Shown here: positions 3,009 to 58,123 of the stretch, in pieces
Layout of the letters: every line of letters starts with the position of its first letter
Numbering within the stretch: position 1 is the stretch's first letter
Source of the DNA: Treponema sp. Marseille-Q4130
GTDB lineage: Bacteria; Spirochaetota; Spirochaetia; Treponematales; Treponemataceae
DNA: 64,000 bases
Direction of reading: 5' to 3'
Assembly: GCF_014334325.1 (NCBI RefSeq)
Contig: NZ_JACSET010000007.1
Coordinates: forward strand, 1-64,000
Notes under the pieces: model-generated
What the model was told of the DNA's origin: nothing
What the model saw: the letters and a program-made list of their open reading frames with translations, nothing else
Databases searched by the model: none
Position numbers and translations under genes: made by a program

Positions 3009-3099
3009 GTGCGCGGAAGCGCACACGTGCATCTGCGAGTTTTCGAAAGAAAACTCGAAATTAAATTGAACGGCGCTATTTCAGACGTTCAATTTAAAC
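3009..3099 (+). repeat. Dispersed three-hairpin element T, copy 1
   Basis: Three hairpins follow each other. A is GTGCGC-ggaa-GCGCAC (3009-3024). B is CGAGTTTTC-gaaa-GAAAACTCG (3036-3057). C is TTAAATTGAAC (3061-3071) with GTTCAATTTAA (3087-3097) around a loop containing GCTATTTCAGAC. All three stems are perfect. The same element, with different but still paired bases, occurs at 43561-43650 on the minus strand, and without hairpin B at 5816-5880. From 3100 to 3225 I see no gene: a frame stays open there but resembles nothing I know and runs antisense into the fructokinase gene. Confidence 0.8.
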
Positions 3100-3225
3100 C
3101 TTCGGTTATTGTTCGTATAGGAAATCGCGGAGCGTTTCACGTCCTTGTGAATGCCGAGATGATAGAGGCTGCCGCTTGTGATATGGTTTTATGTTCTAAC
3201 CCAACTATACCGCGAATTACAGACT

Positions 3226-13768: not shown

Positions 13769-14422
13769 ATGATGATGAAAACTTTTGCCGCAGTGATTTT
13801 CGATATGGACGGGGTTTTGCTCGACAGCGAAACCGTCTGCGATCTTGTGTGGCGTAAAGCGGCAAAAGAGTGCGGCATTGACGATATCGAGTACCTTATC
13901 GAAAAGAACCGCGGATGCAATTATGCCGACACCCGTGCCTCGCTCGAACACGATTTGCAAAGCGTATCCGCGGCCGATAGATTTATGAATCGCATCGCCG
14001 TGCTGTTCAATAAAATCGAAACGGAAGAGGGGCTTCCTTCGATGAAAGGCGCGCGTGAGGCGCTTGAATATTTGACAAAAAAAGGCTACCGCATCGCGCT
14101 TGCCTCTTCCACCGACGGAGATGCCGTGCGCCGTCAGATGAAAAACGCAGGTTTTATCGATTTTTTCGAAACGCTTACGACAGGCGATACGGTCGCGCGC
14201 GGAAAACCGGATCCCGAAATCTACGAGCGCGCCTGCGCATCGCTCGGTCTTTCGCCCGATGTCTGCTGTGCGATCGAAGATTCGCCGAACGGTATGCGGA
14301 GCGCGTACAGAGCGGGACTTTCGTGCATCATGGTGCCCGATAAAATTGCACCCGACGATGAAATGAAAAAAATCGCGATGTGCATATTGCCGTCTCTCGA
14401 TGCGATCGGCACGGTTTTGTAA
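13769..14422 (+). CDS. HAD-superfamily hydrolase, beta-phosphoglucomutase-like
   Basis: The 217-residue cytoplasmic enzyme has the HAD motifs in order: motif I FDMDGVLLDSE near residue 12 with both Asp, a small helical cap, motif II ALASSTDG near 112, motif III lysine in RGKPDPEIY near 148 and motif IV IEDSPNGM near 172. The DGV and KPxPE context puts it in the subfamily of beta-phosphoglucomutases and sugar-phosphate phosphatases. The substrate cannot be read from sequence. Three ATGs in a row begin the gene; the first is used. It starts 14 bp after the superoxide reductase stop, so the two may be co-transcribed. Confidence 0.85.
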   Translation: MMMKTFAAVIFDMDGVLLDSETVCDLVWRKAAKECGIDDIEYLIEKNRGCNYADTRASLEHDLQSVSAADRFMNRIAVLFNKIETEEGLPSMKGAREALEYLTKKGYRIALASSTDGDAVRRQMKNAGFIDFFETLTTGDTVARGKPDPEIYERACASLGLSPDVCCAIEDSPNGMRSAYRAGLSCIMVPDKIAPDDEMKKIAMCILPSLDAIGTVL

Positions 14423-14428
14423 TCGCAT

Positions 14429-14470
14429 CGGCGAACGCGAGGGCTTCTGCCGGAAGTGCAGCCGATTTTT
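14429..14470 (+). repeat. Nested stem-loop element S, 3' tail fragment
   Basis: The segment starting GCGAACGCGAGGGCTTCTG and ending TGCAGCCGATTTTT matches the last 40 bases of the full element at 42867-43012 and 57890-58032. It begins 7 bases after the HAD gene stop, on the same strand, and ends in a T-run. It may act as a terminator. Confidence 0.6.
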
Positions 14471-14551
14471 ATATTATATGCCGTTTTTGGAAAATACGGT
14501 TTCCGGTGTTGTTGACACGGATCATATACTATTTTGATAAGGATTGAAAAT

Positions 14552-23220: not shown

Positions 23221-23273
23221 TTCGATCCTCCTATAAAAACTTTTGCAGGAAGTTGCAACTTCTGGAAAAATTT

Positions 23274-24068
23274 TTAGCCGACACTTTTTATTATCCTTTC
23301 GATGGCGTGCGTCACAAGCAAACCCGCAGTGCTGCCGACGGAAAGCGCGAGCGCCGTCAAAAGCGCATCGACGAGGCGCGACGTGCCGGCGACAAAATCG
23401 CCTGCAATGCTGTCGCGTATCGAATTGACGAGGGCAAGACCGGGAACGACCTGCATGAGCACGCCTATGATGACGACCGACGAATGAAGGGGAAGCGGCG
23501 TAAGACCGAGGATATCCGTCATAACCGAAGCGGCCGAACCCGCACACAGTGAAACGAAAAAATTATTGACCGTGCTTTTTCCGAGAAGACGGATCGCAGC
23601 GCGGAGGATGCCGCCGATAAGGAGCGCACAAAGAGCATCGAGCACGGTACCGCCGAAAAGCAGCGTAAAGAAAAAAGAACTCAACGCGGCGGAAGCGACG
23701 ATAAAGGCGACTGAATATTCTTTCGCCCTTGCGATATGCATGATGCGCCGCTCGATGAGCGCAACGTCCGGAACACGCTTGTGCCGCTCAAGCGAGCGCG
23801 ACAGATTGTTGATCATCGCCAATTTATTAAGATTGATATCGCGCTTGTATATGCGTTTGAAATACGAATAGTGATTCCGTTTTTCATCGAGAAACGAAAC
23901 CATGACGACCGTCGTCGTTATAAACGAAGAGGGCTCGACCGCGCCGAGCGAGGCGGCCGTCCGCACAACCGTCGTTTCCGCGCGGTAAGTTTCCCCTCCG
24001 TTTTCAAGCACGACTGCACCTGCGGAAGCGGCGATCTGCTGTATGTCGTCGACATCGATGTGATCCAT
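23274..24068 (-). CDS. Threonine/serine exporter, ThrE N-terminal-half subunit (DUF1212 type)
   Basis: A 264-residue protein. The soluble N-terminal part (1-110) carries the ThrE signature ENGGETYRAETTVVRTA near residue 22, and about five membrane segments follow (115-260), with a PGLALVNSIRDSIAGDF block near 205 typical of this family. It is the first gene of a two-gene exporter operon, with the DUF3815 partner directly downstream. It is divergent from the aldo/keto reductase gene, 95 bp away. Confidence 0.87.
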   Translation of the reverse strand: MDHIDVDDIQQIAASAGAVVLENGGETYRAETTVVRTAASLGAVEPSSFITTTVVMVSFLDEKRNHYSYFKRIYKRDINLNKLAMINNLSRSLERHKRVPDVALIERRIMHIARAKEYSVAFIVASAALSSFFFTLLFGGTVLDALCALLIGGILRAAIRLLGKSTVNNFFVSLCAGSAASVMTDILGLTPLPLHSSVVIIGVLMQVVPGLALVNSIRDSIAGDFVAGTSRLVDALLTALALSVGSTAGLLVTHAIERIIKSVG

Positions 24069-24979: not shown

Positions 24980-24993
24980 TAATTATTATTAAA

Positions 24994-25060
24994 ATGCGGC
25001 ATTGCAGAAAATATCAATTTTCGAAAATGCCGCATCGGTGCGTGAGCGCGCACATGTACA
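24994..25060. repeat. Hairpin pair between convergent genes, partial element T
   Basis: ATGCGGCATT (24994-25003) and AATGCCGCAT (25026-25035) form a perfect 10-bp stem around a 22-base loop. The next bases, GTGCG-tgagc-GCGCAC then ATGTACATT, resemble hairpin A of element T with its flank (GCGCACACGTGCAT at 3019-3032). It separates the convergent reductase and dehydrogenase genes. Confidence 0.45.
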
Positions 25061-25069
25061 TTCTTAATT

Positions 25070-25912
25070 TTATAACAAGCGCCAGAGTTCCCACAGCAAC
25101 TGCATGATCTCTCGCGGTATCATCTTTGCAATGATGCGGTGCAGCGTACTCACGGCGCCCGTCGTTACAACAGGCAGGTTTAAAGCGCTCCCCAAAAGTG
25201 AAAGGTGCGCAACTACGGCAGTATCTTCTCCGAAATGAAAATTGCGTATCGCGCGCGAAGACGGCAGGGTACTCGATTCCGCATTTTTAATAAATTCGGT
25301 TTTCGTCATCCAGTACGGACATACCGCCGTCACGCGGATGCCGCGTGAAAAAAGCTCCCGGCGGACAGCCCGCGACCAGCTCAGCACGAACGCTTTTGTT
25401 GCGGCATAGACGGCGAGATGCTGAAACGGCTGAAACGCGGACGTGCTCGAAACGTTGATGAGCCTGCTCCCCCGCTTCATATACGGAAGAGATGCGAGCG
25501 CGGCATTGACAAGAGCCGTACAGTTGAGCGCGATCATGCGCTCGTTGTCTTCCCGCGCTATATCGCAATAATCTCCGATTTTGCCGATGCCCGCACAGTT
25601 TATAAAAAAAGCGATCGTCATGCCGTCACCGCTTTTTTCGGTCGCAGCCGAAAGGGCGAGTTCGGCGAAGGGCGAGCGTTTCACCTTCGATTCGAGTGCA
25701 ATTTTTAAACGATCGATGCTCGCAGATTTTGTTAAATCGAGCGGCAGAACTGTAGCCGGATGAGCGAGTTCCGAAGCAAGGGCAAGCAATTTGTCTTCCC
25801 TCCGTGCGATAAGCAAGATTTCATCGATATCTTTCCGCCGGTCTACAAGTTTTGCATATATGCTTCCGAGTCCGCTCGAAGCGCCCGTTATCACAGCGAG
25901 CCGTATCATCAT
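25070..25912 (-). CDS. Short-chain dehydrogenase/reductase
   Basis: A 280-residue SDR enzyme. The cofactor motif TGASSGLG is near residue 9, NCAGIG (the NNAG position) near 104, the catalytic serine in VSSTSAFQ near 150 and the YAATK active-site pair near 164. The fold and motif spacing fit the classical SDR group acting on fatty-acyl or steroid-like substrates. The hydrophobic C-terminal 40 residues suggest membrane contact. ATG 25912 directly followed by another ATG is the probable start; the longer frame upstream is unsupported. It ends close to the hairpin region at 25.0 kb. Confidence 0.87.
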   Translation of the reverse strand: MMIRLAVITGASSGLGSIYAKLVDRRKDIDEILLIARREDKLLALASELAHPATVLPLDLTKSASIDRLKIALESKVKRSPFAELALSAATEKSGDGMTIAFFINCAGIGKIGDYCDIAREDNERMIALNCTALVNAALASLPYMKRGSRLINVSSTSAFQPFQHLAVYAATKAFVLSWSRAVRRELFSRGIRVTAVCPYWMTKTEFIKNAESSTLPSSRAIRNFHFGEDTAVVAHLSLLGSALNLPVVTTGAVSTLHRIIAKMIPREIMQLLWELWRLL

Positions 25913-42715: not shown

Positions 42716-42721
42716 TCGACT

Positions 42722-42760
42722 GATACCGGGAGTGCAGCCGATTTTTTTCGTTACACGTAA
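42722..42760 (+). repeat. Element S tail, extra copy
   Basis: The run beginning ACCGGGAGTGCAGCCG and ending in a T-run repeats the 3' tail of element S 7 bp after the nifS-like stop. Further on, the TTTTTTAGAGAATATAGATT stretch is echoed at 43030-43045 after the full element, so the tail and its flank are duplicated about 265 bp apart. It may serve as a terminator. Confidence 0.55.
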
Positions 42761-42866
42761 TTTTTTAGAGAATATAGATTCTGTTCTGCCGGCCGCTTTC
42801 GGCACACTCAGGAATTACGCATGAAAAATGTATACACAGAAAAGAGACATAGCATAAAATAAAAAA

Positions 42867-43012
42867 GGCGGAACGCGAGGCAGCGGCAATGCCGCCGAAC
42901 CGCTCTGACCGATGGCAAGCAAAATTTCGAAGAAATTTTGCGCAGTCCGATTCCGATTACGGTCAGCCGCGGTGAACGGCAGGGCTGCTGCCGGGAGTGC
43001 AGCCTATTTTTT
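42867..43012 (+). repeat. Nested stem-loop element S, full copy 1
   Basis: From GGCGGAACGCGAGGCAGC to the T-run. Paired arms: GGCAGC (42879-42884) with GCTGCC (42987-42992); CTGACCG (42905-42911) with CGGTCAG (42960-42966); and an inner 10-bp hairpin GCAAAATTTC-gaa-GAAATTTTGC (42919-42941). The whole unit recurs inverted at 57890-58032 with the single-strand parts nearly identical and the inner hairpin replaced by a different perfect hairpin. It is non-coding. It lies 3' of the nifS-like gene, same strand. Confidence 0.8.
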
Positions 43013-43135
43013 ACGGTAACGGTTATTTTTTAAGAATATATATTTTCATGCGTAAGCCCTGCGGTACGGTGCCCTGAGGCGCAGTTGCCCAAGCACTCTT
43101 TTTATGATACTGTGAAGCGAACAGAGGAACGGATT

Positions 43136-43555: not shown

Positions 43556-43560
43556 GGGAA

Positions 43561-43650
43561 GGTTTAAAAGCACCGCTGAAATGGCGCGGCGCTTTTAACT
43601 TCGAGTTTTCTTTCGAAAACTCGCGGATCAACATATGCGCTCACGCGCAT
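43561..43650 (-). repeat. Three-hairpin element T, copy 3
   Basis: Read on the minus strand: hairpin A ATGCGC-gtga-GCGCAT (43635-43650), hairpin B CGAGTTTTC-gaaa-GAAAACTCG (43602-43623), hairpin C TTAAAAGCGCC (43588-43598) with GGTGCTTTTAA (43564-43574) around a loop with CCATTTCAG. Stems A and C differ from copy 1 at both arms in a compensating way; stem B and the C-loop are kept. It lies about 110 bp after the EF-G-like stop on the same strand. The remaining bases, 43651-43757, show nothing else clear. Confidence 0.8.
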
Positions 43651-57763: not shown

Positions 57764-57889
57764 ATGCGCTCCTTGAAAACTGTTCCCGCCATCATATACC
57801 ATATTTGCACATTTTGCAACATTCAATCCGCACATCAGTACAAACACACCGGAAACCGTAGTCTCAAAAAAAACAGCGGGTAAGACAAA

Positions 57890-58032
57890 AATCGGCGGTA
57901 CTTCCGGCAGCAGTCCTGCCGTTCGCCGCGACTGACCGTGATCGGAATCGGACTACGCGAACTTTTTTCAAAAAGTTCGCGTGCCATCGGTCAGAGCGGC
58001 TCGACGTCAGTCCCGCTGCCTTGCGTTCCGCC
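57890..58032 (-). repeat. Nested stem-loop element S, full copy 2
   Basis: The reverse complement matches 42867-43012: the outer GGCAGC/GCTGCC arms, CTGACCG/CGGTCAG arms and the single-strand blocks (CCGCTCTGACCGATGGCA and AGTCCGATTCCGAT) are nearly identical. The inner hairpin is a different perfect stem, CGCGAACTTTT/AAAAGTTCGCG (57956-57981). It lies 92 bp after the comF stop on the same strand. The end has a short T-run on this strand. Confidence 0.8.
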
Positions 58033-58123
58033 TTCTTTGTGTAATTATGCGCAGATTTTTCCGTGTATACATTTCCGGTGCGTTTGCCCTGCGTACTTCT
58101 GCGGAGTCGTTCCTCCCGCTTTA

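Follow-up and report, generated by a model that had tools for sequence, protein, structure and literature searches.

A nested stem-loop that recurs in a 64-kb stretch of Treponema DNA (the window, meaning that whole stretch of 64,000 nucleotides) raises the question of what kind of element it represents. The original prediction considered it a structured module at the 3' ends of genes, perhaps a terminator, or else a small non-autonomous mobile element with a recognised fold. Here we call the element S.

Copies and boundaries of S

A profile HMM made from eight full S copies recovers all four predicted pieces in the window, two full copies and two tails (Table 1). When opposite-strand re-matches of the two full copies, which are palindromic, are ignored, the next window match has an E-value of 0.44. 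The match of the truncated tail begins within the upstream gene and is clear by eye from ~14436, and the right end of the older tail is disturbed beside copy 1. Comparison of the two full copies bears out the observation that their single-strand blocks are nearly identical while the inner hairpin is swapped, and each of the four pieces does adjoin the 3' side of a predicted gene on the same strand. The interval first proposed for the element corresponds exactly to its inner body, but S as a whole extends ~50-60 bp past this body on each side, to terminal inverted repeats (TIRs) that start with CAG and end with CTG. These ends are sharp in an alignment of 18 copies (CAGGGCAACCGCACCGGAAATG... 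and its inverse). Additional copies, for which a genome-wide search had been proposed, are present: 28 DNA matches to S, full or partial, were found across the window's own genome (2.79 Mb, 18 contigs).

Table 1. Positions of S elements and their parts in the 64-kb window.
Feature	Position	Strand	Remarks
Full S element, copy 1	42809..43061	+	253 bp from TIR to TIR; profile match 1-256, E 6.8e-76
Full S element, copy 2	57836..58091	-	256 bp; profile match 1-256, E 3.3e-78
S tail, truncated copy	14365..14515	+	Profile match, E 3.6e-15
S tail, 5'-truncated older copy	42718..42787	+	Profile match, E 3.2e-13
Left TIR, copy 1 (CAGGAATTACGCATGAAAAATG)	42809..42830	+	TIR site 42809-42827
Right TIR, copy 1	43040..43061	+	TIR site 43043-43061
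Left TIR, copy 2	58072-58091	-	
Promoter-like site (TATACA, 18 nt, TAAAAT)	42831..42860	+	Ends 6 nt before body; consensus match only
Conserved structured body (interval of the original prediction)	42867..43012	+	End of A-run to end of T-run
Helix P2, 5' strand	42905..42911	+	Partner 42960-42966; co-varying pairs
Core loop, conserved 5' side (ATGGCAA)	42912..42918	+	Its GGC with GUCC forms P1b
Variable hairpin P1	42919..42941	+	Differs wholly between copies
Core loop, conserved 3' side (GCAGTCCGATTCCGATTA)	42942..42959	+	
Helix P2, 3' strand	42960..42966	+	Co-varying pairs
Intrinsic-terminator-like hairpin and T-run	42987..43012	+	3' end of body
Structured body, copy 2	57887..58032	-	

Recent mobility

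S is a recently active, MITE-like, non-autonomous DNA transposon of ~255 bp in the T. socranskii clade. It has TIRs, a target duplication of characteristic length, and many dispersed copies together with empty sites; it is also short and has no transposase gene, full copies being ~250-295 bp long and reaching up to 435 bp where insertions are nested. The TIRs, the 9-10 bp duplications, the empty sites, a recent burst and the co-varying fold support the original idea that S is mobile, small and non-autonomous and has a recognised fold.

Duplications were sought by comparing the flanks of 30 copies from the own genome, T. socranskii G098 and G099, and T. parvum G100. Flank identity peaks at a length of 10 bp (0.473 vs 0.273 shuffled, z 7.4, 0/2000 shuffles), with z 2.3 at 7 bp, z 2.6 at 11 bp and z below 2 at every other length between 4 and 13; the set includes the internally deleted copy L022, whose right end is wrongly set, and the same insertions in two genomes, e.g., L002/L159. 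In the complete genome of a relative, G244, identity at 10 bp is 0.585 vs 0.266 (z 12.8) over 39 rows, which include two copies entered twice and omit loci L333-L335, whose matches were not long enough. In the same test, a length of 9 bp has z 7.3 and one of 13 bp has z 3.3, also 0/1000 shuffles.

The G244 genome holds 20 distinct places at which S has at most eight differences from the consensus, and the copies at 10 of the 20 are identical to it. A perfect 10-bp duplication occurs at 10 of these 20 young places and a perfect 9-bp duplication at five, while five have neither; three of the five 9-bp places share flank sequence and may lie in repeated segments. Although target duplications, for which a check had been proposed, are thus evident in the wider set, copies 1 and 2 in the window have none (1/10 positions in each). 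The insertion of copy 1 is also not clean, having ~45 extra bases around it. G098, G099 and G244 lack this copy, although they do have its flanks and the older tail. At L008, the insertion site is unoccupied in both G098 and G099.

Some individual copies have other features. L022 (G000:C10:259024) is an internally deleted S in which both TIRs remain, along with a hairpin and T6 directly after it, and a T. parvum copy (L082) has a ~40-bp imperfect direct repeat on both sides. A ~38-bp palindromic repeat (CACTTGCAACGAGCGCGAAG...) is inserted at one position within several S copies (L008, L010, L011, L012, L014, L016), and is also found elsewhere in G098, G099 and G244, both alone and in short tandem arrays.

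Conserved structure of the body

In most copies tested, S carries a conserved nested-hairpin fold of ~145 nt. Both window copies fold better than 200/200 dinucleotide shuffles (42860-43020, z -4.96; 57880-58038 on the minus strand, z -6.70). The core loop, ATGGCAA / GCAGTCCGATWCCnnTTA, lies between the co-varying helices P1 and P2; further out are P3, then an outer conserved loop ending in AG (present in 83/84 aligned rows), then a closing helix that is often A-rich on its 5' side and T-rich on its 3' side. Within the core, P1b is formed by GGC with GUCC or by CGC with GUCGG, and its core pair is CG in 43 cases, GC in 23, AU in four and UA in three. Between P1b and P2 lies an asymmetric conserved loop with GAUWCCnnUUA.

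Covariation is extensive. In alignment A1 (24 copies), 89.4% of cells are paired, vs 35-41% in the slid control, and 15 of 21 pairs have changed on both sides. The corresponding values for alignment A4 (80 distinct rows) are 91.3% vs 32-38%, and both partners have changed in 14 of 15 pairs; A4 was aligned to the model and hence leans to it, and MAFFT alignments agree for P2. By helix, A4 is 99.1% paired in P2, in which six of seven pairs have changed on both sides, and 98.7% in P1b. P1 is 94.9% paired on A1 and 76.7% on A4, where its length varies. RNAalifold applied to the MAFFT alignment A3 recovers P2 only, and support for P1 and the outer parts comes from counts for the named structure. 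When 48 other full copies (four of them near-identical to the active copy) are placed on the fold of the active copy, 98.2-99.7% of P1-P3 is paired, 95.2% of the outer part, 89.1% of the TIRs and 76.1% of the AT region, vs 39-45% for the slid control.

A closing helix with at least nine pairs and at most one mismatch, GU counting as a pair, is present in 55 of 79 copies (69.6%), and the control with swapped partners has a mean of 9.0% and a maximum of 16.7%. Treating GU and AC alike raises the count to 65/79. An earlier and laxer test (31/40; control mean 20.8, maximum 25.3) is superseded by this stricter scoring.

A family of related structures

The interior of S is one of a family of nested-hairpin elements across the treponeme family, and the structured body also occurs outside this MITE. 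A pattern for the core matches 75 stretches in 84,980 species genomes. Nested arms, as judged by eye, accompany 35 of the 75, all of these in records titled as spirochaetes; the remaining 40 are pattern matches without arms, of which one is a spirochaete record. Viral contigs gave no matches to the core pattern. With the core model R1, hits were found in 23 of 392 genomes sampled from the phylum, every one of them a member of the element's own family (3/167 genera). Model R2, which was built on 30 diverse bodies and run within the family, detects the body in 100/274 genomes and 5/20 genera, or 41/128 genomes with a completeness of at least 90% and a contamination of at most 5%; these counts include its source genomes, and the E-values are rough.

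Except for TD-1-like inserts nested in some S copies, no Rfam 15 family lies over the S body in 27 sources (the window, to E 5, and 26 loci, to E 1 or E 0.01). We found no description of S in the open-licence literature, as represented mostly by titles and abstract openings. In other species the same body lies within other outer inverted repeats, examples being the copies in G028/G090/G418/G065 (AGRCTGAATGTCGAGTTT type) and G030/G170 (GTTGTAGAGAAGTGCA type). Loci L229, L231, L267, L268 and L273, in several genomes, have two bodies within ~300 nt in opposite orientation.

Possible functions of the body

Changes on a single side of a pair offer a clue to the strand that folds. In the body, such changes give GU in 30 cells vs AC in 7 (16 and 5 sites), and in the TIR and AT regions GU in 97 vs AC in 54 (27 and 23 sites), where the copies are related and the cells not independent. 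This GU bias suggests that the molecule that folds is the plus strand, and is compatible with RNA or single-stranded DNA. The promoter-like site before the body and the T-run after it lead us to infer that the body may be transcribed, either as a structured RNA of ~145 nt or as a leader/terminator module. Consensus scans yield two overlapping promoter-like sites vs a mean of 0.6 in shuffles, a weak excess, and one terminator-like hairpin in the region vs a mean of 0.5, which is weak by itself. The reading that we prefer, and consider reasonably likely, is that S is an active MITE whose body is such an RNA or leader/terminator module and which is moved in trans, the best candidate for the source of the transposase being an ISAs1-type element. 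Selection would then act on the body as a folded plus-strand nucleic acid.

The positions of S copies bear on whether the body is instead a plain bidirectional terminator or insulator, which would stop transcripts on both strands, whose insertions would be harmless and whose loop sequence would be of little importance. All placements depend on gene calls from a simple codon-usage script. That a same-strand gene always precedes S is not upheld beyond the window: in the home clade (T. socranskii/parvum, some copies partial) the upstream gene is on the S strand for only 18/39 copies, and the downstream gene for 30/39. Placement in G244 was determined for 18 of the 20 young places (two with shared flanks were dropped) and for 17 older copies. 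The 18 young copies all lie outside predicted genes, and the downstream gene is on the S strand for 15/18. One G244 copy called intragenic, L332, lies by eye between signal peptidase- and smpB-like frames, and the call is probably a gene-caller artefact. Among other species, 54/55 copies are outside predicted genes, and orientation follows no strict rule.

In a group of species with 27 copies that was defined after inspection of the data, a gene 3' end is within 60 nt of 16/27 copies and a gene 5' end of 4/27; for the other 49 copies these counts are 20/49 and 10/49. A 3'-end or terminator role is accordingly plausible in species outside the home clade, although the home clade obeys no upstream-gene rule, so the original proposal of such a role stands only in part. 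Termination as the whole explanation would suit the A-runs and T-runs that flank the body, the 16/27 copies of this post hoc group near gene 3' ends, and the hairpin and T6 retained by the internally deleted L022. However, the loop bases are kept family-wide while helices change, which a terminator does not need. Gaps between convergent genes are also not favoured in the home clade (4/39, against a baseline of 7/34 window gaps over 40 bp), and 0/30 G244 copies for which both neighbours are called sit between convergent genes. We regard a plain terminator or insulator as a doubtful account of S.

Another alternative, which we consider unlikely, is that the body is selected not as RNA but as folded single-stranded DNA, either the plus strand or a hairpin or cruciform, for example as a substrate for a recombinase or for transposition. 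Few GU pairs occur across the wider family: P2 has 547 Watson-Crick pairs, 3 GU and 0 AC, the closing helix has 893, 20 and 9, respectively, P1 has 15 GU and 14 AC, and P1b has 0 GU and 2 AC. This scarcity fits folded single-stranded DNA or correction of palindromes as well as it fits RNA. The almost purely Watson-Crick P2 and closing helix, together with the mobility of S, speak for such a DNA fold, and the conserved unpaired bases within a long hairpin may be compared to recombination sites such as attC. For body changes in the T. socranskii clade, the excess of GU over AC (30:7 cells, 16:5 sites) runs counter to a DNA fold, although G-T can be tolerated in single-stranded DNA too. The T-run at the end of the body likewise favours RNA, and the combination of TIRs and 9-10 bp duplications suits a DDE transposase that acts on double-stranded DNA.

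Within one genome, closing helices can be unrelated, with lengths of 9-22 pairs. Copies that share loops and core but have unrelated closing helices would be explained if the body were a structured nucleic acid that spreads by itself, inserting into or capping the loops of existing host hairpins, mostly terminators. In that case the body would have joined up with a DDE transposase only secondarily, to give the MITE of the T. socranskii clade. If true, such a hairpin-targeting element would be of a new kind, but we regard this reading as improbable. Least credible of all is a passive palindrome whose arms co-vary through template-switch correction of inverted repeats with the fold unselected: both arms do often change jointly with few intermediates, but correction should remove mismatched internal loops, and yet these hold most of the letters conserved across species and stay conserved in lineages with changed arms, and pairing is kept best in the body, whereas the AT region keeps it least.

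Candidate source of transposase

In the preferred reading, S would be mobilised by a transposase acting in trans, and we infer that the best candidate is an ISAs1-type element of the same genomes. G244 has four intact insertion sequences (ISs) of 1238 bp that encode a 392-aa DDE transposase, a PF01609 match above cut-off, and every one of the four ISs has a 9/9 duplication; PF01609 has eight matches in G244 and G099, four of which belong to other genes. The own genome contains one intact relative of the G244 IS with a 10/10 duplication (PF13808 below cut-off), and a truncated copy, L157, without a duplication. We take the intact ISs of both genomes to be ISAs1-type. Members of the ISAs1 family typically make duplications of 8-10 bp. 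The intact ISs and S alike have duplications of 9-10 bp. This agreement in length is suggestive, and the link to S is circumstantial: the IS TIR (CACGGAAATCAA) has little in common with that of S beyond CA-GG.

A larger element bounded by the S TIR was not seen in G244, where 61 TIR sites pair at distances of at most 435 bp (up to three mismatches), a few single three-mismatch sites being left uninspected besides these pairs. An autonomous partner with the S TIR was also sought by a TIR-pattern search of G000, G098, G099, G100 and G244, and there was none among the inspected sites, the extra TIR-like ones being partial S copies or ordinary sequence. A TIR in common with an autonomous transposon is usual for MITEs but not obligatory, and such a match was either unsought or unfound for bacterial elements other than RUP (PMC2229807).

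Comparison with known systems

The interiors of MITEs normally drift freely. A multi-loop fold that is kept family-wide, exists in many copies and is still mobile in one lineage is therefore unusual, and a conserved body within a mobile element suggests that the fold serves either movement of the element or host transcripts. Ten identical copies in one genome, with closely related empty sites, make this question directly testable. S would also add a repeat family to the annotation of treponemes.

Like S, integron attC sites are imperfect palindromes that keep their extra-helical bases although the arms vary. They have an integrase and a 7-bp core site at each end, whereas S has TIRs and target duplications, and its conserved bases are central rather than at the ends. 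ISs of the ISAs1 family share with S the 9-10 bp duplications and CA-GG ends and are intact in the own genome and G244, but S has no gene and its TIRs are otherwise different.

TD-1 and TD-2 RNAs (Rfam RF03155 and RF03162) are likewise hairpin elements of the same organisms, but neither model matches the S body in the 27 sources. TD-1-like RNAs (RF03155, 41-62 bits, under the gathering score of 64.5) do occur in or beside S copies (L016:1585-1692, L017:1362-1469, L107, L115, L128, L193), and in L016, L017, L107, L115 and L128 the insert lies directly before ATGGCAAGC. The window also has TD-2/TD-1-like hairpins with sub-threshold scores of 27-41 bits, at 43558-43650 (-), 3009-3102 (+), 24987-25091 (-) and 23229-23335 (-).

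ERIC/RU-1 and related MITEs are similar to S in that they are small, non-autonomous and intergenic, have TIRs and target duplications, form long stem-loops and may act in mRNAs (PMC2229807). ERIC/RU-1 has TA at its termini and a TIR of 7 bp (PMC2229807, Table 1), in contrast to CAG...CTG and a TIR of ~20 bp in S. Also unlike ERIC/RU-1, S has duplications of 9-10 bp and a multi-loop body that is kept family-wide while arms and TIRs change.
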